Shown one piece after another: positions 11,740-22,029 of a stretch of DNA of 64,000 nucleotides. The notes beneath the pieces were generated by a model. It saw only the letters and a program-made list of their open reading frames with translations. It made no database searches and was not told where the DNA came from. The DNA lies in assembly GCA_027493525.1 (NCBI GenBank), contig JAOSKN010000001.1, forward strand, positions 1,426,001 to 1,490,000, in the 5' to 3' direction. Origin of the DNA: Planctomycetota bacterium (GTDB lineage Bacteria > Planctomycetota > SZUA-567 > H5-PLA8). The position numbers were made by a program, and so were the translations under genes. How positions within the stretch are numbered: the stretch's first letter is position 1; the number at the start of each line of letters is the position of its first letter.

Positions 11740-12522
11740 ATGCTGATTATCTGGGGCTCCAAGCGCAAGGAACTCGAGCTCGGCTGGGTCGCGGACCTGT
11801 GCCTCGCGTGCGGCAGGCCCACCGCGCACCGGCTCCGGGAGGTCCGTTCCGTCAGCCACCTCTACTACATCTCCCTGGGCAACGGCAGCCTCGCCGGGTA
11901 CGAGATCGTCTGCCGCGAGTGCGGCCGGGTCGGCGCCGCCGAGACCGACGATTACGCCGACTTCGGCGATGAGCCGGACGAGGACCTCGGCGCGCTGGTC
12001 GAACGGACCAACCCCGAATTGCCCCGGCGGATCGTCGCTCGGGAGGATCTCGCGCGCCGCATCGCCGACGGCAGCGCCAGCCCCGAGGACCGCCTGCACG
12101 CGCTCACGGAGACCCTCTTCGCCTTCGCGGCCGAGCTGGAGGAGCGCGGCAAGGAGACGCACTTCGACCTGCGCGCCGGGCTCTGGCTGCTGGGCGTCTT
12201 CGTGGCGCCCTTCGCGGTCGGCGTCGCGGCGCAGGCGCTCTTCGCCGGGGGCTCACCGGTCCCCAGCTACCTCGCGTTGGGCTCCATCGGCGTCTGCGTC
12301 GTCATGCTCGTCGTCGCGCTGGCCACCGAAGGCTCGCGCTACGCGCGCAAGAAGCTCATCCCCCAAATGCTCCCCAGGCTGCGCGAGCTGAAACCCACGC
12401 TGGAGGAACTCGAAGAGGTGCTGGGGCGGTTCAAGAAGGGCGGCCTGGCGCTCGGCAAGAAGCTCAAGCCCCTCGACGTGTTCGAGGCGCTGGCGGGAAG
12501 TTCATGCCAGAATGCGCCGTAA
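11740..12522 (+). CDS. Zinc-ribbon membrane protein of unknown function
   Basis: 260 aa. Two CxxC knuckles, CLACG (residues 18-22) and CRECG (about 53-57), suggest a zinc ribbon at the cytoplasmic N-terminus. Two membrane helices follow (GLWLLGVFVAPFAVGVAAQALF and LALGSIGVCVVMLVVALA). The C-terminus is charged and helical (LRELKPTLEELEEVLGRFKKG). I choose the ATG at 11740, with GAGG upstream; an upstream in-frame ATG at 11707 lies inside a perfect -10 box TATAAT (11703-11708), so transcription probably begins after it. Confidence 0.65.
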   Translation: MLIIWGSKRKELELGWVADLCLACGRPTAHRLREVRSVSHLYYISLGNGSLAGYEIVCRECGRVGAAETDDYADFGDEPDEDLGALVERTNPELPRRIVAREDLARRIADGSASPEDRLHALTETLFAFAAELEERGKETHFDLRAGLWLLGVFVAPFAVGVAAQALFAGGSPVPSYLALGSIGVCVVMLVVALATEGSRYARKKLIPQMLPRLRELKPTLEELEEVLGRFKKGGLALGKKLKPLDVFEALAGSSCQNAP

Positions 12523-12569
12523 GTTTCTATAGGAAATAATTGGGAATCCAACCTTCCTGATGTCGGTCG

Positions 12570-13442
12570 TCAGTGTGTTTTCCCATACTTCGCCTGGAGG
12601 TCGCGCGCCATGCGCGCGCAGACGGCCAGCTTGAGCGGATCGACGCCGGTCTTGTGCCCGAGCGCCTCGAAGCGCTCGACGAGGCCTTCGGTGGGCACGT
12701 TGGAGATCAACTTGTCGGCGGCAAAGGGGCAGCCGCCCATGCCGCCGGCCGCGCCGTCGAAGCGCCGGCAGCCGGCCTCCAGCGCGGCGAGCACCACTTC
12801 GTGCCAGTCGCCGGGGCGGCCGTGGAAGTGCGCGGAGAGTTCCAGCACGGGAAACTCCTTCGCGGCGCGGGCGAAGACGCCCCGCGCCTGCCCCGGTTCG
12901 GCGGCCGCGCAGGTATCGGACAGCGCGACGTGGCGCACGCCCAGCCGGACCAGGGAGCGGAGCATCTCCATCAGCGCCGCCTCGCTCCAGGCCTCCCCGT
13001 ACGGATTGCCGAAGGCCATCGAGACGTACACGAGGAAACTCATGTCGTGCGATTCGGTCCGCGCGAGCAGCCGCTCGACGAGCGGCCAGGTCTCCGAGAC
13101 CGACTTCTTCGTGTTGCGGACCTGGAACTCGTTGCTGAGACTGAAGGGGAAGCCGAGCGTGTCCAGGCCGCCGACGCCGAGCGCGCGCTCGACGCCCTGC
13201 TCGTTGACGATCAGGCCGATGTACTCGATCTCCTCGCGCGGCGGGAGCGCGCGGACGACGGCCTCGGTGTCGGCCATCTGCGGGATCGCCTTGGGGCTGA
13301 CGAAGCTGCCGACTTCGACGTGCCGCAGGCCGGTCTCGAGGAGCGCGCGAAGGTAGGCGATCTTTTCGGCCGTGGGGATGAAGCCCGGGAGGCCCTGAAA
13401 AGCGTCTCGGGGCGTCTCGACGAGGGCGACGTGATCGGGCAT
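12570..13442 (-). CDS. HMG-CoA lyase-like aldol lyase
   Basis: A 290-aa TIM-barrel protein of the HMGL-like/DRE-TIM family. The N-terminal VETPRDAFQGL corresponds to the conserved VEVGPRDGLQ motif with catalytic Arg-Asp. LRHVEVGSFVSPKAIPQMAD matches the family strand 2 'iEvtSFVSPKwvPQmaD'. The loop GGMGGCPFA carries the active-site cysteine of HMG-CoA lyases. HFHGR probably supplies metal-binding histidines. It may therefore cleave HMG-CoA or a related acyl-CoA (leucine degradation), but short HMG-CoA-lyase relatives also act on other substrates. The ATG at 13442 has GGAGG upstream. It diverges from the hydroxypyruvate-isomerase-like gene, with 125 bases between the starts. Confidence 0.85.
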   Translation of the reverse strand: MPDHVALVETPRDAFQGLPGFIPTAEKIAYLRALLETGLRHVEVGSFVSPKAIPQMADTEAVVRALPPREEIEYIGLIVNEQGVERALGVGGLDTLGFPFSLSNEFQVRNTKKSVSETWPLVERLLARTESHDMSFLVYVSMAFGNPYGEAWSEAALMEMLRSLVRLGVRHVALSDTCAAAEPGQARGVFARAAKEFPVLELSAHFHGRPGDWHEVVLAALEAGCRRFDGAAGGMGGCPFAADKLISNVPTEGLVERFEALGHKTGVDPLKLAVCARMARDLQAKYGKTH

Positions 13443-14336: not shown

Positions 14337-14846
14337 TCAGGCGCCCTTGGGCGCGGATTCGAGCTTGCGGCGGATGTCGTCCCAGGGCGCGCGGTAGAGG
14401 CGCACCTCCAGGCCGGTGCGTTCGGAGAGTTCCACGGCCAAGTCCTTGCGCGTGGGATTGGCGCAGGCGACGCAGAGCAATCCGTCGATGCGCTCGAAAG
14501 GAACCACCTCGAGGTCCTGGCAGTACTCGGCCGGCAGGAGCGCCAGCGCCTCGGCGGACACCGGGAAAAAGCGCAGGAAGACGCGCGGCGTGTGGGTCTG
14601 CTGCTTCAGCGCGGCGCCGAGCGCGGCGTCGTCCACCCCGCACTCGTCGCGCAGGATCCGGCCCAGCGGCAGGAAGGACTTGCGCTGCACGCTCAGCGCG
14701 GCCTCGAGCTGCTCTTCCGCGATGAGCCCGGCATCCTTGAGCAGGCGCCCGAGGGGCAAGCCCTCCTTGCGCTTGCGCCGGCCGCCGCCCTGCTTGCGGT
14801 CGCGCTCGGGCTGATTTCCGAGCCGGTGAATGCGCACATGCGCCAT
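14337..14846 (-). CDS. Type II secretion/pilus ATPase N-terminal (MshEN-like) domain protein
   Basis: 169 aa. From about residue 30 the pattern LPLGRLLKDAGLIAEEQLEAALSVQ...PLGRILRDECGVDDAALGAALKQQ is the repeated helix layout of the T2SSE_N/MshEN domain. The C-terminal half (residues 90-165: YCQDLEVVPFERIDGLLCVACANPTRKDLAVELSERTGLEVRLY) matches the second half of that domain, which in other proteins can bind cyclic-di-GMP or act as a docking module. The ATPase domain is absent, so it is a stand-alone regulatory or adaptor domain. The N-terminal 30 residues are very basic (KQGGGRRKRK). Confidence 0.75.
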   Translation of the reverse strand: MAHVRIHRLGNQPERDRKQGGGRRKRKEGLPLGRLLKDAGLIAEEQLEAALSVQRKSFLPLGRILRDECGVDDAALGAALKQQTHTPRVFLRFFPVSAEALALLPAEYCQDLEVVPFERIDGLLCVACANPTRKDLAVELSERTGLEVRLYRAPWDDIRRKLESAPKGA

Positions 14847-14918
14847 GCCCAGATGCTAAACGCCAACCGCGTGACGGCGCAAGCATATTCCAGGGGCCGG
14901 CGATTCGGCGCGAAGCGC

Positions 14919-14977
14919 TTGACAGGGGCCGCCGCGCGGTCTAAAGTTAGCCGAGGTTAAGTTAGACGCGGCAAACT
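14919..14977 (+). promoter_or_regulatory. Promoter with two overlapping DtxR-box-like operators
   Basis: -35 TTGACA (14919-14924) and -10 TAAAGT (14942-14947) are spaced by 17 bases. Two imperfect 18-bp palindromes overlap the -10 and start region: AGTTAGCC-GA-GGTTAAGT (14945-14962) and AGTTAGAC-GC-GGCAAACT (14960-14977). The half-site GTTAGCC is the core of the published DtxR/IdeR box. The DtxR-type gene begins 13 bases later, so autorepression in the presence of metal is the natural reading. Confidence 0.7.
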
Positions 14978-14989
14978 TGGGACCACGGC

Positions 14990-15517
14990 ATGACGCAGTC
15001 CGCCCGGAAAACCGAGCGCCCGGCCCACGGCAACGGCCTCCGCCCCCGCTCCCTCTCGGCAAACATGGAGGACTACCTCGAGGCCATCTTCCGCCTCGCC
15101 GAGCGCGAAGGCGCCTGCCGCGTCTCGCAGATCGCCGAAAAACTGGGCGTCAAACGCCCCAGCGTCTCGAAGGCGCTCAAGCGCCTCAAGGAGCAGGGGC
15201 TCGTCGTCCATACGCCCTACGGCGGCGTGGGCGTGACCGCCCGCGGGAAGCAGGTCGCGCTGCAGCAGGTGCGCACCCACCGCGTGCTGACGAATTTCCT
15301 CACGGGCGTCCTGAAACTCCCGGAGGACCTCGCCGAACACGACGCGTGCCTGATGGAGCACGCCATCAGCCACGAGACCGTGGAACGGCTGGTCGAGTTC
15401 ATCGACCACCTGAAGGTACAGGACCGCAACGGCGGCTCGAGCTTCCGCAAGGGCCGCGCGCCGAAGGACGCGAAGGGCGTGCGCCGTTCGCGCCGAAGCT
15501 GGACGAGCAGGGTCTAG
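14990..15517 (+). CDS. DtxR/MntR-family metal-dependent regulator
   Basis: 175-aa DNA-binding repressor. Residues about 22-85 form a winged helix (MEDYLEAIFRLAE...CRVSQIAEKLGVKRPSVSKALKRLKEQGLV). The dimer and metal region follows, with THRVLTNFL and EHDACLMEHAIS. The Cys-x-x-Glu-His pattern (C-L-M-E-H) matches the DtxR/IdeR primary site (Cys102, Glu105, His106) better than the MntR form, which has Glu in place of Cys. There is no SH3/FeoA domain; the basic tail (SFRKGRAPKDAKGVRRSRRSW) is not family-like. It begins directly after operator-like palindromes and ends 10 bases before the porin start. Confidence 0.88.
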   Translation: MTQSARKTERPAHGNGLRPRSLSANMEDYLEAIFRLAEREGACRVSQIAEKLGVKRPSVSKALKRLKEQGLVVHTPYGGVGVTARGKQVALQQVRTHRVLTNFLTGVLKLPEDLAEHDACLMEHAISHETVERLVEFIDHLKVQDRNGGSSFRKGRAPKDAKGVRRSRRSWTSRV

Positions 15518-15527
15518 GGGACAAGCC

Positions 15528-16883
15528 ATGCGCGCACTTCGAACCGGACTCGCACGCCGCGCCGCGCCCGCGCCGCGTGCGGACTTTTTTCTTGGACCCA
15601 AAGTTAGCCTGGGCAAACTATGCGCCGCCCTGGCTTCCCTGCTCGTCGCCTCCCTCGCCGCGGCCGGCGAACCGGAGAGCGACTCGCGCAAGCACCACCA
15701 TCCCCACGGCGGCGCCGGCGAACCGCTCGCGACGCCCGACTACTGGAGCGGCGCGCACCTCACCGGAGACTGGAATGGCGCGCGCGCCTGGGCCGCCGAG
15801 CGCGGCCTGGAGTTCGAGATCGTGTACACCGGCGAGGTCATGGACAACGCCCGCGGCGGCGTCAATACCCGCGGCGCCGCCGAGTACATCGGCACGCCCG
15901 ACGTCATCGCCGATCTCTACCCCGAGCGCATGGGCGGCTGGCAAGGCGGGCAATTCCACTTCTGGTTCACCAACGTCCACGGCGCGGGGCTGACCGAACG
16001 CCACGCCGGCGACGCGCAGGTCCTCAGCAACCTCGAAACCGAGCCCTTCACCACGCTCTACGAGGCCTGGTACCGGCACGCCTGGTGGGACGACCGGTTC
16101 TGGATCAAGGTGGGCAAGTTCGACGCCAACATCGATTTCGCGGCCTCCGATTACGGCGGCGAGTTCATCGTCTCCTCGTTCGGCTTCCCGCCGATGATTC
16201 CCTTCGGCACGTACCCCAATACGGGGCTGGGCGCGGAAGCCGGGTTCCGCATCAACGCCTGGGCGGGCGTCCAGGCGCTCTTCCAGGACGGCGCGCCCAA
16301 CGATACGTCCGTCGGCGGCGGCAAGACGATGTTCGACGGCGAGGGCGGGCACGTTTCGATGTTCGAATTCCACTTCAGCCCGCCCTGGCTGCCCGAGCGG
16401 CTCCCGGGCACGCTCAAGCTCGGCGCCTGGCATCACAACGGCGACTTCGAGGAACTGACCTTCGCCCAGGATCCGCCCCCGGCCTTCTCGAGCAACTACG
16501 GCGCCTACGCGCTCTACGACCAGCGCCTGCTCAAGGAGCGCGACGATCCCGGCGACGAACAAGGCCTGGGCCTGTTCCTGCAGGCCGCCGTCGCCCCACA
16601 GGACCGCAACGAGATCGACCGCTACTTCGGGGCCGGGCTGGTCTATCGCGGCGCGCTGCCTTCGCGCGACGCGGACGTCGTGGGCTTCGGCGTCGCGCAC
16701 GCGCGGTTCAGCAACCGGCTGAACCGCACGCGCGCCGTGTTCGAGACCCAGTACGAGTTTTTCTATCGCGTGCAGGTGACTCCGTTCCTGTGGCTGCAAC
16801 CGCAGGCCGTGTACGTGCACCAGCCCTCGGGGGTCGAACGCGACGCCTTGGCGCTGGGGCTCCGGTTCGAGGTGAATTTCTGA
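15528..16883 (+). CDS. OprB-like porin of the metal-uptake locus
   Basis: 451-aa predicted outer-membrane beta-barrel. After the signal region, the sequence ATPDYWSGAHLTGDWNGARAWAAERGLEFEI is the N-terminal signature of OprB carbohydrate-selective porins. Alternating aromatic strands follow (FWIKVGKFDANIDFA, AEAGFRINAWAGVQALF) and the end ALGLRFEVNF has the terminal Phe typical of outer-membrane proteins. Just after the signal peptide there is a histidine cluster (KHHHPHGG). The ATG at 15528 has AGGGGA upstream, but a terminator-like hairpin and a DtxR-box-like operator lie inside the first 90 bases, so the true start could be later. Its neighbours suggest passage of metal or metal chelates, not sugars. 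Confidence 0.75.
   Translation: MRALRTGLARRAAPAPRADFFLGPKVSLGKLCAALASLLVASLAAAGEPESDSRKHHHPHGGAGEPLATPDYWSGAHLTGDWNGARAWAAERGLEFEIVYTGEVMDNARGGVNTRGAAEYIGTPDVIADLYPERMGGWQGGQFHFWFTNVHGAGLTERHAGDAQVLSNLETEPFTTLYEAWYRHAWWDDRFWIKVGKFDANIDFAASDYGGEFIVSSFGFPPMIPFGTYPNTGLGAEAGFRINAWAGVQALFQDGAPNDTSVGGGKTMFDGEGGHVSMFEFHFSPPWLPERLPGTLKLGAWHHNGDFEELTFAQDPPPAFSSNYGAYALYDQRLLKERDDPGDEQGLGLFLQAAVAPQDRNEIDRYFGAGLVYRGALPSRDADVVGFGVAHARFSNRLNRTRAVFETQYEFFYRVQVTPFLWLQPQAVYVHQPSGVERDALALGLRFEVNF
15602..15619 (+). promoter_or_regulatory. DtxR-box-like operator before the porin core
   Basis: AGTTAGCC-TG-GGCAAACT is an 18-bp palindrome with 7 of 8 paired positions, and it shares its left half exactly with the operator at 14945. 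A weak promoter (TTGGAC about 15592 and AACTAT about 15617) would place it between -35 and -10. A GC hairpin CGCACG/CGTGCG ending in six T (about 15551-15590) lies just before it and could terminate the regulator transcript. Confidence 0.6.
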
Positions 16884-16927
16884 ACGCGCCGCCGAGCGCG
16901 GGCGCGGAACCATGAGGAGGATTTCCG

Positions 16928-17809
16928 ATGTGGCGTAACCTGCCGTTCCTGGTCCTGGCCGCCTGCCTGGCGCTCGTACCCGCGCGGGCCGCGGAGAAGA
17001 AGCTGATCGTCTGCTCGACCACCCAAGTCGCCGACTTCACGCGCCAGGTCGTGGGCGACCGCGCCCGCGTCGCCTGCATCCTCGCGCCCGGCGCCGACCC
17101 GCACCTGTACGAGCCCAAGCCCGGCGACGCGAAGCTGGTCCAGCAGTGCGACCTCGTCATCCAGAACGGCCTGGGCCTGGAAGGCAAGAACTGGATGGCC
17201 AACCTGGCCCAGGACGCCGGCAAGCCCGTCGTCGCCGCCACCGCCGGCGTCAAGCCGCTGGTCCTGGACGAGCACGGCGCGACTCACGACGATCCGCACG
17301 CCTGGTTCGACCCGGTCAACGCCGCCGTCTACGTGAAGAACATCCTGGAGAGCGTCAGCAAGCTCGATCCCGACCACGCCGAGGAGTTCGCCGCGCGCGC
17401 CAAGCTCTACCTCCAGCACCTGCGCGTCCTCGATGCCTGGATCAAGGAGCAGTTCAACGCGATTCCAAAAGAGCAGCGCATCCTGGTCACGAGCCACGAC
17501 GCGTTCAACTACTTCTGCCAAGCCTACGGCTTCCGCAACCAGGCTCCCGCGGGCTGGACGACCGAAGGGGAGATCACGCCCGAGCAGCGGCAGAAGGTGG
17601 TCGCCTCGATCGCCAGCTTCGGCGTCAAGTCGATCTTCGTCGAGACCAGCGTCAACCCGAAGACGATCCAGGACATCGCCAGGGACGCCGGCGTGAAGGT
17701 CGGCGGGGAGTTGTACTCGGACTCGATGGGTCCCGCGGGCTCGGCGGGCGAGGAGTACCTCGGGATGATGCGCGAGAACGTCCTCACCATCCTCCACGCG
17801 CTGAAATAG
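16928..17809 (+). CDS. Metal ABC transporter substrate-binding protein (ZnuA/TroA/MntC type)
   Basis: 293-aa periplasmic protein of the cluster A-I family that captures Zn2+, Mn2+ or Fe2+. The signal peptide MWRNLPFLVLAACLALVPARAAE precedes the mature chain. The four expected ligand sites are visible: His in GADPHLYEP, His in DDPHAWFDP, Glu in IFVETSVNP and Asp in LYSDSMGP. The long charged His-rich loop of ZnuA is missing (only LDEHGATHDD), which leans towards Mn or Fe, although not decisively. It is followed at 18 bases by an unknown gene and then by the ATPase and permease; AGGAGGA precedes its start. Confidence 0.9.
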   Translation: MWRNLPFLVLAACLALVPARAAEKKLIVCSTTQVADFTRQVVGDRARVACILAPGADPHLYEPKPGDAKLVQQCDLVIQNGLGLEGKNWMANLAQDAGKPVVAATAGVKPLVLDEHGATHDDPHAWFDPVNAAVYVKNILESVSKLDPDHAEEFAARAKLYLQHLRVLDAWIKEQFNAIPKEQRILVTSHDAFNYFCQAYGFRNQAPAGWTTEGEITPEQRQKVVASIASFGVKSIFVETSVNPKTIQDIARDAGVKVGGELYSDSMGPAGSAGEEYLGMMRENVLTILHALK

Positions 17810-17827
17810 GCAACGGCGGGACGAACC

Positions 17828-18361
17828 ATGCGTATCGTGCTGGCCATCGCCATCTGGGCGCTCTGCGTGGGCGGGGTCCGGCTGTACCTCGCCCACCGCG
17901 ACGAGAACCGCCCGGCTGCTCCGCCGGCCTTCGAACGCCGCGAGGCGCCGGGCGCCTACGCGCTGGAACTCACGACGACCTTCGGCTGGCGGCCGCAGTC
18001 GGCGGAGCCGGATCCGTTCTCGCTCTCCGGGGAACCCGAGGCGCCGACCCCGCCCTTGCGCGTGCAGCTCGATGGCCGGGAGATCCTGGCCTGGACGCGG
18101 GAACTTAAGCCCGGCGAACCCGTCCGCGCCGCGGACATCCAGGGCGTGAAGACCGGCAAGAACGAGTTCTTCATCCGCGCGCTCCCGCAAGGCGAGCACG
18201 CCGGCGCCCGCCATGCCGTTCGCGTGCGCCTCTTCCGCGACGAGCGCCCGCTGGCCGACCGCACCTTCTGGACCGAGGGCGCGCTGGGGCTGGCGGAAAC
18301 GGTGAGCATCGAAGTCGAACCGGAACCGCGCGCTCCAGGGGAAGCCGAACATGCCCACTGA
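17828..18361 (+). CDS. Membrane-anchored protein of unknown function in the metal-transport operon
   Basis: 177 aa with an N-terminal signal anchor (MRIVLAIAIWALCVGGVRLYLA) and a soluble beta-rich remainder (LRVQLDGREILAWTRELKPGEPVRAADIQGVKTGKNEFFIRALP; HAVRVRLFRDERPLADRTFW). The end is His/Glu-rich (GEAEHAH). No family is recognised. It ends inside the ATPase gene (11-base overlap), so translational coupling is likely. Position suggests an accessory periplasmic part of the transporter. The overlap and operon place are seen; the role is inference. Confidence 0.7.
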   Translation: MRIVLAIAIWALCVGGVRLYLAHRDENRPAAPPAFERREAPGAYALELTTTFGWRPQSAEPDPFSLSGEPEAPTPPLRVQLDGREILAWTRELKPGEPVRAADIQGVKTGKNEFFIRALPQGEHAGARHAVRVRLFRDERPLADRTFWTEGALGLAETVSIEVEPEPRAPGEAEHAH

Positions 18362-19166
18362 GCTGCGGCTCGATCCGGCGCCGAGCACCGACCCGCCGAA
18401 GCCCGAGGCCCCGGCGCTGGAGGTCGAACATCTCACCGTCAGCTACGGCCCCAAGCCCGCGCTCCTCGACGTGACCCTTTCGGTGCGGCACGGGCAGCTC
18501 GTGGGGATCATCGGCCCCAACGGCGCGGGCAAGTCCACCTTCATCAAGGCGGTGCTGGGCTTCGTGCCCTCCGATTTCGGGAGCGTGAGGGTGCTGGGCA
18601 CGCCGGCGCGCGAGGCCAAGGGCAAGGTCGCCTACGTCCCGCAGCGCGGGAGCGTGGACTGGGATTTCCCGATCTCCGTGCGCGAGGTGGTGATGATGGG
18701 CCGCTACGGGCGCATTCCGTTCTGGCGCGATCCGGGCCCCGAGGACCGCGAGGCCGTAAGCTACGCGCTGGAGACGGTGCGAATGTCGGAGTTCGCGGAC
18801 CGGCAGATCGGGCAGCTCTCGGGCGGGCAGCAGCAGCGCGTCTTCATGGCCCGCGCCCTGGCGCAGGCCGGGCAGATCCTGCTGCTCGACGAACCCTTCG
18901 CCGGCGTGGACGCCGCGACCGAGCGCGCGCTGCTGGACGTCCTGCGCCGCGCCAAGCAGGACGGGCGCACGCTGCTCGTCGTCCACCACGACCTCGTCAG
19001 CGCGGGAGAGTACTTCGACGAGCTGATCCTGCTCAAGCAGCGGCTGGTCGCTTACGGGCCGCCCGAGCACGTGCTGCGCGAGGACCTCCTGACCGAGGTC
19101 TACGAGGGCAAGCTCAAGGCCTTTAGCGTGCTGCGCGCGCGCGACGCCGCGGGGTACGAAGGATAA
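18351..19166 (+). CDS. Metal ABC transporter ATP-binding protein (ZnuC/MntB type)
   Basis: 271-aa ABC ATPase. Walker A GPNGAGKST, Q-loop in YVPQRGSVDWDFPI, signature LSGGQQQRV, Walker B ILLLDEPFAG and H-loop VVHHD are all intact. The Q-loop region 'RGSVDWDFPISVREVVMMGRYG' is characteristic of the manganese/zinc/iron cluster-A ATPases. It drives import through the permease encoded next, 31 bases downstream. Confidence 0.93.
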   Translation: MPTELRLDPAPSTDPPKPEAPALEVEHLTVSYGPKPALLDVTLSVRHGQLVGIIGPNGAGKSTFIKAVLGFVPSDFGSVRVLGTPAREAKGKVAYVPQRGSVDWDFPISVREVVMMGRYGRIPFWRDPGPEDREAVSYALETVRMSEFADRQIGQLSGGQQQRVFMARALAQAGQILLLDEPFAGVDAATERALLDVLRRAKQDGRTLLVVHHDLVSAGEYFDELILLKQRLVAYGPPEHVLREDLLTEVYEGKLKAFSVLRARDAAGYEG

Positions 19167-19197
19167 GGAGGCGCGGCTTGCCCGCGCCCGCGAAGCC

Positions 19198-20733
19198 ATG
19201 AACGAGCTGCTCCGTTTCTTTGCCGCCCCGTTCGAATTCCCCTGGTTCGGGAAGGCGGTGCTGGCCGGGAGCCTGGTGGCGATCGTCTGCTCGGTCGTCG
19301 GCTGCCTGGTGATCCTGCGCCGCATGGCGTTCCTCGGCGACGCGCTCTCCCACGCCATGATCGCCGGCGTGGGCGCGGGCTACCTGTTCATGAAGGTGGT
19401 CTTCGGCTACAAGGCCCACGCGCTGGGGATGCTGCTGGGCGCGCTCATCTCGGCCGTCCTGACGGTGCTGCTGATCAATTTCGTCTCGCGTTCGTCGCGG
19501 ATCAAGCAGGACGCCTCCATCGGGATCATGTACTGCTTTATCTTCGCCGCCGGGCTGGTCCTGGTGACGCGCTTCCAGGACCTGATCCACATCCACGTGC
19601 AGCACTTCCTGGTGGGGGACGTGCTGAGCGTGGCGGACGAGGACCTGAAACTGACGAGCTACGTCGCGGCGCTGGTGCTCTCGATGGTGCTCGTCTTTTT
19701 CCGGCATTTCCAGATCACGAGCTTCGATCCGATCATGGCCGCCTCGCTGGGCTTTCCCGTGGGGCTGCTCGACTACGCCTTCACGCTCTGCGTCTCGCTG
19801 GTGGTGGTCAGCGCGATCAGCATGGTGGGCGTGATCCTGGTGGTGGGGCTCCTGATCACGCCCGCGGCGACGGCCTACCTGCTCACCGACCGGCTGCAGC
19901 GGATGATGGGCCTGGCCGCGCTCTTCGGCGTCACCAGCGTCGTCGGGGGGCTGTACTTGGGCGTGGCGCTGAACAGTTCGGGCGGCGGCGCGATCATGGT
20001 CTTCTGCTCGCTGCAATTCCTCGCCGTGCTGGTCGCGGCGCCGCGCTACGGGCTGCTGGGCGGCTGGCTGCGCCGGCGGCGCATGATCCCCCAGGACCTG
20101 ATGGAAGACATCCTCCGCGCGGTGCTGAAGGGCGGCGGCGAAGTGAAGTCGGCGCAGGTCGGCGCGCAGTTGCCCCACCCCGGCGCCTCGGTCTCGCGCG
20201 CGCTCGCGATCATGGCCGGCGACGGGCTGCTCCGCGAGAACCAGGGCGCCTATGCGCTGACCGAACAGGGGCTCGACCACGCCAAGCGCGTCATGCGCGC
20301 GCACCGGCTCTGGGAAACCTACCTGCAACGCGTCGGCACCCCGGCCAGCGAACTCGACGCGCGCGCCCATACGCTCGAGCACATCTACGAGGAAGAGGCG
20401 ATGGACTACCTCGACCACAAGCTCGGCCATCCGCTCACCGATCCCCACGGCAGCGAGATCCCCGCCGACTTCGTGCATCTGGAGAGCGGCCTGCCCGTGA
20501 TGCTCAGCCTGCTGCGCCGGGGCCAGCAGGCCCGCGTCGTGGCGCTCCGCCGCCCCGCCGAAGACGCCGGGCTGAAGCCCGGCGACCGCCTCGTCATGAC
20601 CGGCCGGCAAGGCGACGGGAAGGTCTGGGGCGTGCGCCGCCAGGACGGGCAGGAACTGAAGCTCGACCACGCCGCCGCCGACGCGGTCCTCGTCGAAGTG
20701 GTCCGCGAAGAACCGCGGCCGCCGCAAGCCTGA
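19198..20733 (+). CDS. Metal ABC permease fused to a DtxR-like and a FeoA-like domain
   Basis: 511 aa. Residues 1 to about 290 form an ABC-3 permease with about 8 helices and the motifs RRMAFLGDALSHAMIAGV and GVILVVGLLITPAATAYLL. From about residue 298 it becomes soluble: a winged helix (QDLMEDILRAVLKGGG...VSRALAIMAGDGLLRENQGAYALTEQG), then a DtxR metal/dimer region (RAHRLWETYLQRVG...AHTLEHIYEEEAMDYLDHKLGHPLTDPHGSEIP), then a FeoA/SH3-like region (about 430-505, with GLKPGDRLVM). The cytoplasmic tail would let metal state be sensed at the transporter. Such permease-DtxR fusions are known in databases for some phyla, but what the tail does is not established as far as I know. Confidence 0.9.
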   Translation: MNELLRFFAAPFEFPWFGKAVLAGSLVAIVCSVVGCLVILRRMAFLGDALSHAMIAGVGAGYLFMKVVFGYKAHALGMLLGALISAVLTVLLINFVSRSSRIKQDASIGIMYCFIFAAGLVLVTRFQDLIHIHVQHFLVGDVLSVADEDLKLTSYVAALVLSMVLVFFRHFQITSFDPIMAASLGFPVGLLDYAFTLCVSLVVVSAISMVGVILVVGLLITPAATAYLLTDRLQRMMGLAALFGVTSVVGGLYLGVALNSSGGGAIMVFCSLQFLAVLVAAPRYGLLGGWLRRRRMIPQDLMEDILRAVLKGGGEVKSAQVGAQLPHPGASVSRALAIMAGDGLLRENQGAYALTEQGLDHAKRVMRAHRLWETYLQRVGTPASELDARAHTLEHIYEEEAMDYLDHKLGHPLTDPHGSEIPADFVHLESGLPVMLSLLRRGQQARVVALRRPAEDAGLKPGDRLVMTGRQGDGKVWGVRRQDGQELKLDHAAADAVLVEVVREEPRPPQA

Positions 20734-20795
20734 GCGGCAGCCCGCCGGCCACGCGGTTGCCCGTCGCGCTCCTTCAGGACGATTCCAGGATGGAA

Positions 20796-21728
20796 CTACG
20801 GGCTCAGGTCGCTGACGGGCGGCAGGGCATCGGGCGCGCGAGGCGTGAAGTAGAACGGGTCGTCGCCCACGATGCGCGGCGGCGCGACGCTCACCCCGGG
20901 CAGGCTGGGGACGTTGGGCGTGGAGCCCGCCACCGGCGTGCCGGGCACGACCGGAGGATGCAGTTCGATGTCCTCGTCCGGATGCGGATCGTCGCCATCG
21001 AAGTAGGGAATGTTGCTGAGCAGCACATCGAGGTCTTTCTCGTCCGCCTGCTCGCCCACCGGCTCCGCGCCGTCATGGTCGCAGCACTTTTTCTGATCGC
21101 GCGGGCGCTTGAGTTCCACGAGGGATTCCTCGTGCGCCAGACACCAGCACTCCATCTCGCCGACGATCAGCACCAAGCGCGAGCAACCGCGCCGCCCCAC
21201 CTGCCGGGGCTCCTCGTGCTTCAGGACGAACGAGGAAGGCATCAGCGTCCGGCCCATCAATGCCGTCGTGCGGACCGAGAACCCGCCCGCGTGCGCGACC
21301 TTGCTGGTCTTCACGCGGATCGTGCCGTGGTAGAGCGTCAACAAGGTCCGCACGCCGCGCGAGGTGATAACCCGTTCGGTCAGGTTCAAGCGCGTGCCGG
21401 GACCCAGCACCAGAAGGCTGCCGTCCATCAATTCGATCTGCGCGGTGGTCTGGGAATCCGTGAGCAGCGTGTCCTGCGGCCGAATGTGCTCGCCCACCTG
21501 GACCGGTTCGGCCTTGCTGGTACCACGGCGCTGCACCTGGAGCTTCGGTTTGCCCAACGAAGCGACGACTTGGCCTTCCTTTTTCTCGACTTCAGGGTTG
21601 GCGATGATGGTCGTGACCCAGCCATCCGTGAGCGGGATGTCTGTGGGTCGTACTCGTGAAGGCACGGGCTCTTGCGCCCAAGTGGAGGCGGCAGCAAGTG
21701 CCAGGATTAGAACAAGGTGCGCCCTCAT
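20796..21728 (-). CDS. Secreted FecR-domain-like protein
   Basis: 310 aa with a signal peptide (MRAHLVLILALAAASTWAQ). The middle (about residues 80-155: GEHIRPQDTLLTDSQTTAQIELMDGSLLVLGPGTRLNLTE...LLTLYHGTIRVKTSK...FSVRTTALMGRT) matches the FecR fold, with threshold 'l..G..i..ds.t.a.l.l.dGs.i.l...s.l' and 'l..G.i.v.......f.v.T....v.GT'. A cysteine-containing stretch (MECWC, KKCCDHDG) and a proline-rich acidic tail follow. No sigma factor or receptor gene is adjacent, so a structural role is as likely as signalling. The longer frame upstream to 21914 has no family-like residues. Confidence 0.75.
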   Translation of the reverse strand: MRAHLVLILALAAASTWAQEPVPSRVRPTDIPLTDGWVTTIIANPEVEKKEGQVVASLGKPKLQVQRRGTSKAEPVQVGEHIRPQDTLLTDSQTTAQIELMDGSLLVLGPGTRLNLTERVITSRGVRTLLTLYHGTIRVKTSKVAHAGGFSVRTTALMGRTLMPSSFVLKHEEPRQVGRRGCSRLVLIVGEMECWCLAHEESLVELKRPRDQKKCCDHDGAEPVGEQADEKDLDVLLSNIPYFDGDDPHPDEDIELHPPVVPGTPVAGSTPNVPSLPGVSVAPPRIVGDDPFYFTPRAPDALPPVSDLSP

Positions 21729-22029
21729 GATGCTGATCTCATCCCCCACCTGACGCGCAATGCGCCGCTTTTCGTATTTCGCCAATCTTATAGCGCACAT
21801 TGAGTCTCCATAAAGTACATTCTTCGTCAGTTCTTCACTCTCATGAAGCTTACTGGCAAAGGCCGAGCCAACTATAACTTGAGACCATTCTGTTGCTTCG
21901 GCCAACAAGCGCAACGCCTTTAGAGACGCACACGAGCATGTAAATTGCTCATTTGTAGTGTAGAAGTTATGTTTAGGCCTAGATTCATGTCATCTTGACA
22001 TGATTTGGTTCATAGGATAGGATCCCGAC
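21729..22029. other. AT-richer divergent spacer between the FecR-like gene and fmdB
   Basis: About 300 bases, clearly less GC-rich than the surroundings. Its right end contains the fmdB promoter (21986-22023). No gene is supported; the open frame on the minus strand here is the N-terminal extension of the FecR-like gene and lacks a signal peptide. Confidence 0.55.
21986..22023 (+). promoter_or_regulatory. Palindromic promoter of the FmdB gene, probably leaderless
   Basis: CATGTCA-TCT-TGACATG (21986-22002) is a perfect 7-bp dyad that contains the -35 box TTGACA (21995-22000). A -10 box TAGGAT (22018-22023) follows at 17-base spacing. The predicted start of transcription, 6-7 bases on, coincides with the ATG at 22030, and no ribosome-binding site exists. 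Confidence 0.6.

Follow-up and report, generated by a model that had tools for sequence, protein, structure and literature searches.

The described systems closest to the locus reported here are ATP-binding cassette (ABC) importers of divalent metals, the repressors related to its regulator, and a few transporters with comparable extra parts. The locus lies in a window of 64,000 nucleotides, which is the whole stretch of DNA that we analysed, from a Planctomycetota genome of 7,456,160 bases (7.46 Mb; G000). It consists of six plus-strand genes between 14990 and 20733 that encode, in this order, a DtxR/MntR-type regulator, an OprB-type porin, a metal-binding protein, an extra protein with a predicted membrane anchor, an ABC ATPase, and a permease with a DtxR-type tail. 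Compared with the manganese (Mn) importers PsaBCA, MntABC and SitABCD, it differs in that the permease carries the DtxR tail and an SH3-like end, a gene for an anchored protein is inserted between those of the binding protein and the ATPase, and the third metal ligand of the binding protein is His instead of Glu. TroABCD of Treponema and the AztABC zinc importers are alike in their His-His-His-Asp binding protein, this being the ligand set of TroA (zinc and Mn) and AztC (zinc). TroR, too, belongs to the DtxR family and regulates a metal ABC importer; to our knowledge neither system has a tailed permease or an extra anchored protein of this family. In comparison with the MntR/DtxR-family repressors DR2539, SloR and IdeR, the tail described here belongs to a permease and lacks the DNA-contact motif. 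We also count MmpS5, the anchored periplasmic partner of MmpL5, among the closest known systems. MetNI and ModABC, according to the cited part of PMC10710835, are alike in having a C-terminal cytoplasmic domain of the kind that would sense the imported substrate, but there the domain is on the ATPase, whereas here it is on the permease and is repressor-derived, and the inhibition is proposed by analogy. For the outer membrane, MnoP is described in the cited part of PMC9334652 as a Mn channel of Bradyrhizobium; the likeness of the OprB-type porin to it is in proposed role, outer-membrane Mn entry.

Our reading of the locus is that it encodes a likely Mn ABC importer on which DtxR-type sensing would act twice to stop it, once through the soluble repressor and once through the permease tail, and we consider the case for and against this reading to be evenly balanced. 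The steps that the sequence backs are the gene order, the recurrence of palindromic boxes around the regulator, the tie between the extra protein and the permease, and the loss of the DNA-contact motif from a tail that keeps its metal and dimer residues. An earlier sequence-only reading of the window had proposed a locus for metal uptake that has a DtxR-family regulator of its own, sites resembling operators and one additional component, and that core holds; every gene that it named was found on the plus strand at the position it gave. The regulator, the porin and the importer belong to known families. What is new is a DtxR tail without its motif on a permease, together with a new protein that is conserved along with it.

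The permease consists of an ABC-3 part (residues 8-280), the DtxR tail (about 296-424) and an SH3/FeoA-like end (about 440-502), and the tail gave no PF01325 match up to an E value of 0.1. For comparison we aligned 76 of the 120 listed permease homologues (of 140 matches), fragments and others having been removed by hand, and as a control we used 30 soluble regulators, which are the window protein and those of 29 loci drawn from matches in 109 of the 294 Planctomycetota genomes of our wider survey. Across the tails, the helix-turn-helix has an entropy of 2.57 bits, making it the most variable of the regions compared, versus 0.96 bits for the nearly invariant metal and dimer region; the corresponding values for the soluble regulators are 1.69 and 1.84 bits. 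The DNA-contact motif is found in 1/76 tails versus 27/30 soluble regulators, and H369, E373, H395, H411 and H417 are present in all 76 tails. The tail therefore appears to keep the likely metal-site residues and to have lost the DNA-reading ones, and it probably no longer binds DNA. A tail of this composition would curb import directly once the cell is replete with metal.

When searched singly, the extra protein appears to be an orphan, and it has no Pfam or NCBIfam match. A profile was built from four syntenic proteins, from the operons of two further genomes of the family (L020 in G001, which is of the same genus as G000, and L021 in G004), a Sedimentisphaerales operon (L027) whose permease is 55% identical to that of the window, and a Pirellulaceae operon (L028). 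It returned 147 family matches. Among the 120 listed, none has a precomputed Pfam domain, the names in the source, where given, are "hypothetical" or "uncharacterized", and the organisms named are Planctomycetes, Desulfomonile and other Thermodesulfobacteriota, with one labelled Pseudomonadota. In the 294 Planctomycetota genomes, where at most 12 candidates were scored per genome, the profile found a match in 12, and in all 12 the gene immediately precedes those of the ATPase and the tailed permease. The binding protein is visible upstream of it in 11 of these, and in G264 the contig ends there. Counted from the other side, this sample has 13 full-length tailed permease genes, and 12 of them have the gene beside them. 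Another 17 permeases (L061-L077), in 15 other Planctomycetota genomes, have a shorter DtxR tail and are without the extra protein, and several of them are tandem pairs of tailed permeases. The 1.5-kb flanks of these 17 loci gave no match to the extra protein better than an E value of 0.09, and 11 of the loci show the slot itself, with the binding-protein and ATPase genes overlapping or at most 45 bases apart. By this comparison the extra protein belongs to a conserved family tied to the full-length tailed permease type.

The AlphaFold2 model of the extra protein, made with an alignment of 84 of the 120 listed sequences (of the 147 matches), has a helix at residues 2-26 and a beta-sandwich at 44-163, with a predicted local distance difference test score of 91.2. 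In the same alignment, the entropy of the membrane helix (1.72 bits) is close to that of the folded body (1.87 bits), and that of the linker is 3.17 bits. Within the helix, R2 is found in 83/83 sequences, G15 in 84/84, G16 in 82, W10 in 73/84 and R24 in 74/84. Conservation of the helix at the level of the body is unusual for a mere anchor, and suggests that the helix contacts another membrane protein, most simply the permease. At the other end of the protein, 62 of the 84 members have at least two His in the last eight residues, and His makes up 1.5% elsewhere. We infer a periplasmic location, contact with the permease and a part in metal relay.

The regulator has 175 residues with two DtxR domains, and no SH3-like domain was found in it. 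Its nearest solved chains include 8pvt (DR2539) and MntR, and its best NCBIfam model, NF008273, scores 100.8 bits, under the MntR equivalog cut-off of 153. By its domains it is a member of the DtxR/MntR family, and it is predicted to bind the palindromes near its gene. The three palindromes named in the sequence-only reading are present, each within one base of where it had put them. Its description of them as DtxR boxes is borne out in part, since GTTAGCC is common to both, but they are not the canonical DtxR/IdeR box, which the cited part of PMC8464063 gives as TTAGGTTAGSCTAACCTAA. They are 20-bp palindromes of the form AAGTTWGCC-NN-GGCWAACTT. In the whole source genome, AAGTTWGCCNNGGCWAACTT with at most 3 mismatches occurs in 5 places: the three boxes, which match best with 1, 1 and 2 mismatches, and two others with 3 mismatches each. 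Because this pattern was derived from the boxes themselves, the palindrome of L027, AAGTTAGCNNNNGCTAACTT, was run as a less circular check, and in the 64-kb window it matches only the three boxes at up to 4 mismatches.

We compared seven genomes of the family (G000-G006). A close regulator (at least 70% identical) is present in five of them, G000-G004, and in all five there are two boxes 15 bp apart before the regulator and a third after it; the weak members are the third box of G001, with 4 mismatches, and one of the G004 boxes, with 5. At a limit of 2 mismatches the five genomes have 12 places, of which 11 are at the regulator and the exception is in G003 (C76). Genome scans of G005 and G006 gave no box at this level. 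In G005 the regulator match is just a fragment, 33% identical, where a contig ends; the mntH gene of that genome is on this contig too. The search of the family genomes found no regulator match in G006. Among the 13 full-length tailed-permease operons, allowing 4 mismatches, boxes are located just upstream of the regulator gene in all seven that have one nearby (the window, L020, L021, L042, L043, L047 and L048), and none was found in the six without a visible regulator (L044, L045, L046, L049, L050 and L110). The regulator and its boxes recur ahead of different importers, and in this they act like a movable module. The DNA of box 3 is kept in G004 in a different reading frame (offset 0, versus offset 1 in G000 and G001), which points to selection on it as DNA. 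L027 gave no OprB homologue, and its third box closely precedes the gene of the binding protein. Box 3 may act as a roadblock, in looping or as a local promoter. L028 has neither a regulator nor a box at up to 4 mismatches; upstream of its binding protein (6343) there is no AAGTTAGCC box at the same threshold, and a TTGACA is found there, followed by a different AT-rich palindrome-like stretch.

Manganese is the most likely metal, with zinc or a mixture of the two as a serious rival. We favour Mn because the other targets of the same regulator include mntH and an importer with His-His-Glu-Asp ligands. The regulator of G002 is 70% identical and comes with the same three boxes, and the gene after it is mntH (Nramp 1.2e-136; MntH model 612 bits, cut-off 430). 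In G003, the regulator and boxes are followed, up to the contig end, by a ZnuA-type protein 34% identical to that of the window and an ATPase, and the ZnuA-type protein has His-His-Glu-Asp at the positions so aligned in Mn lipoproteins, which we take to be their metal ligands. Nramp matches of 245-458 bits are found in G002, G005 and G006, all without the tailed permease, and weak ones, above the Pfam cut-off, in G000 (68 bits) and G001 (92 bits), both with it. No Nramp was found in G003 or G004; G004 has the tailed permease, and G003 has neither. By fold, the closest matches are PsaB, a Mn importer, and DR2539, a Mn repressor. PF00950, PF01297 and PF00005 are all above cut-off in one cluster, as expected of an ABC-3/ZnuA importer. 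The top NCBIfam match of the ATPase is a Mn ATPase model, under its cut-off, and none of the importer proteins reaches a Mn or zinc equivalog cut-off in NCBIfam. The importer thus shows neither of the marks of a Mn-specific one, which are His-His-Glu-Asp ligands or a Mn equivalog above cut-off, and a Mn-like function is indicated by the context of the regulator, not by the importer's own ligands or equivalogs. As an observation in its own right, the Nramp protein of G002 (L109:2641-4551) is of MntH type with a fused C-terminal Usp domain (PF00582, 2.5e-21), so that in this family the same three-box regulator is found with another importer to which a cytoplasmic domain is fused.

In the mechanism that we propose, the metal ion would enter through the OprB porin, be captured by the binding protein and be passed on by a permease homodimer. 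The sequence-only reading had outer-membrane, periplasmic and inner-membrane steps coupled, and gene order is what suggests such coupling; an OprB homologue was seen in 3/13 of the full-length tailed-permease operons (the window, L020 and L021). The fused tails would pair through the DtxR dimer domain beside the ATPases, and once filled with metal the tail dimer would lock the importer (trans-inhibition), in the manner of the C-terminal domains of MetNI and ModABC. The binding sites of the soluble repressor would be the three palindromes, located at the promoter and where the transporter genes begin, and the metal-loaded repressor would cover the -10 region. The extra protein would be a dedicated subunit: within the membrane its conserved helix would pack against the permease, while in the periplasm its sandwich and its His/acid tail may help to dock the binding protein or to pass metal. 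The metal, the repression, the trans-inhibition and the subunit role are the parts of this scheme that we infer. Put as a history, a DtxR/MntR regulator would have been fused to the importer it once regulated, given up DNA and come to gate entry, with a soluble copy keeping the promoter and an obligate new subunit bringing a metal-binding tail; this is a tentative account, in which we place slightly less than even confidence.

If the mechanism is true, we know of no earlier case of a metal-dependent repressor fold acting post-translationally as the metal gauge of a divalent-metal ABC importer, and the stopping of importers in a metal-full cell becomes testable by removing one domain. A widespread family, found by source names in Planctomycetota and Thermodesulfobacteriota with 147 matches and called hypothetical where named, would gain a firm operon context and a testable role. 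A limited literature search turned up no account of a DtxR domain on a permease. Annotators already know of the fusion itself, since in source databases such proteins carry the label "ABC-type Mn2+/Zn2+ transport system permease subunit/Mn-dependent DtxR family...".

Several observations weigh against our reading, and those that concern the metal carry the best-surviving alternative, which is that the same architecture imports zinc (or zinc and Mn, or iron). In alignments to Mn lipoproteins and among the operons, the ligand positions of the binding protein are His59, His124, His190 and Asp265, and His-His-His-Asp is found in 12/12 tailed operons with a visible binding protein and in L028, whereas Mn lipoproteins have Glu at the third position. 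The binding protein had been counted as His-His-Glu-Asp, the Mn type, until a recount gave His at that position, which raised our estimate for zinc and slightly lowered our confidence in the two-level reading and in the fusion history. The top NCBIfam models of the binding protein and the permease are also zinc ones, AztC (238.6 bits, cut-off 350) and AztB (191.5 bits, cut-off 280), both below cut-off. His-rich segments are found in all three OprB proteins (the window, L020 and L021) and at the end of the extra protein, and would fit zinc. In 28/30 relatives of the regulator, Cys occupies a metal position, as it does in DtxR. Against zinc are the mntH gene and the His-His-Glu-Asp importer that follow the same regulator and boxes in G002 and G003, the strong Nramp matches where the tailed permease is absent (G002, G005 and G006) set beside weak or no matches where it is present, G003 having neither, and the Mn model at the top for the ATPase. 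On balance we find zinc import possible but unlikely.

The remaining counter-evidence concerns the tail, the boxes and the extra protein. The model of the tail still folds as a winged helix, a DtxR dimer domain and an SH3-like end, and its helix-turn-helix is mildly basic (mean net +1.5 versus +3.4 in the regulators), so DNA binding by the tail may persist; it also has His at the position of the MntR Glu ligand. The tail might then be a membrane-tethered repressor that acts on the same boxes and, in the presence of metal, draws the operon towards the membrane, but with the contact motif in a single tail of the 76, as opposed to 27/30 soluble regulators, and with so variable a helix-turn-helix, we regard this as improbable. 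The 3-mismatch level of the box scan is noise, since across the seven family genomes the pattern gave 26 places and a reversed control 34. G232, the 13th genome with a full-length tailed permease, gave no profile match for the extra protein, and its slot is occupied by an open frame of 205 residues that matches only over its first 24 residues, those of the membrane helix (58%). Trans-inhibition and the role of the extra protein are proposed from conservation. Still, that the extra protein is an ordinary signal-anchored protein merely sharing the operon, as its common beta-sandwich fold without a clear relative would allow, seems to us no less improbable than the tethered repressor, given its place between the same two genes in 12/12 genomes (binding protein visible in 11), its absence from what we found at the 17 shorter-tailed loci, and a membrane helix conserved like the fold.

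Features of the metal uptake locus, in window coordinates
Feature	Position	Strand	Basis or remark
Sigma-70-like promoter, TTGACA-N17-TAAAGT	14919..14947	+	-10 overlaps operator 1
Operator-like palindrome 1 (AAGTTAGCCGAGGTTAAGTT)	14944..14963	none	20 bp; tandem with box 2, 15 bp apart
Operator-like palindrome 2 (AAGTTAGACGCGGCAAACTT)	14959..14978	none	Genome and window pattern scans
DtxR/MntR-type regulator	14990..15517	+	Pfam: PF01325 5.6e-20, 71.7 bits (cut-off 26); PF02742 1.3e-18, 67.1 bits (cut-off 27)
OprB-type porin, His-rich segment (KHHHPHGG) after presumed signal peptide	15528..16883	+	PF04966 9.1e-49, 167.2 bits (cut-off 22.9)
Operator-like palindrome 3	15601..15620	none	Within presumed signal-peptide codons of oprB
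ZnuA/PsaA/TroA-type metal-binding protein	16928..17809	+	PF01297 2.2e-85, 286.8 bits
Extra protein: N-terminal membrane helix, predicted beta-sandwich, His/acid C-terminus	17828..18361	+	AlphaFold2 model, profile
ABC ATPase of metal importer	18351..19166	+	PF00005 6.3e-29, 101.8 bits
ABC-3 permease with DtxR-type tail and SH3/FeoA-like end	19198..20733	+	Pfam, alignment, model: PF00950 201.4 bits; tail PF02742 71.6 bits (cut-off 27); FeoA at end sub-threshold

The promoter is the sole sigma-70-like site that a scan of 14800-20900 returned, against a mean of 0.1 in shuffles, and the same scan found an equivalent site in L020 and L027 and none in L021. A second promoter at box 3 was considered, and the scan found none there in G000, G001 or G004. 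In the same three genomes there is a terminator-like hairpin with a T-run between the regulator and box 3, which we do not use as evidence because scan totals were near chance and none was seen by eye in G002 or G003. This GC-rich hairpin and T-run is at 15568-15592 of the window, a short way before operator 3, and L020 and L021 have its equivalents; in G000 and G001 it sits within the start of oprB.

The operon is flanked by minus-strand frames, of which the upstream one matches the MshEN domain and the downstream one the FecR domain. The FecR-domain protein (20796-21914, minus strand) is convergent with the operon and adjoins it in L020 too (12172-13263). In one genus (g109), a second, divergent ZnuA-type binding protein (30-33% identical) is encoded directly after the tailed permease (L043:10690-11607, L047:10458-11351 and L048:4384-5289), and by alignment its ligands are His-His-His-Asp in L047 and L048 and His-His-His-Glu in L043.

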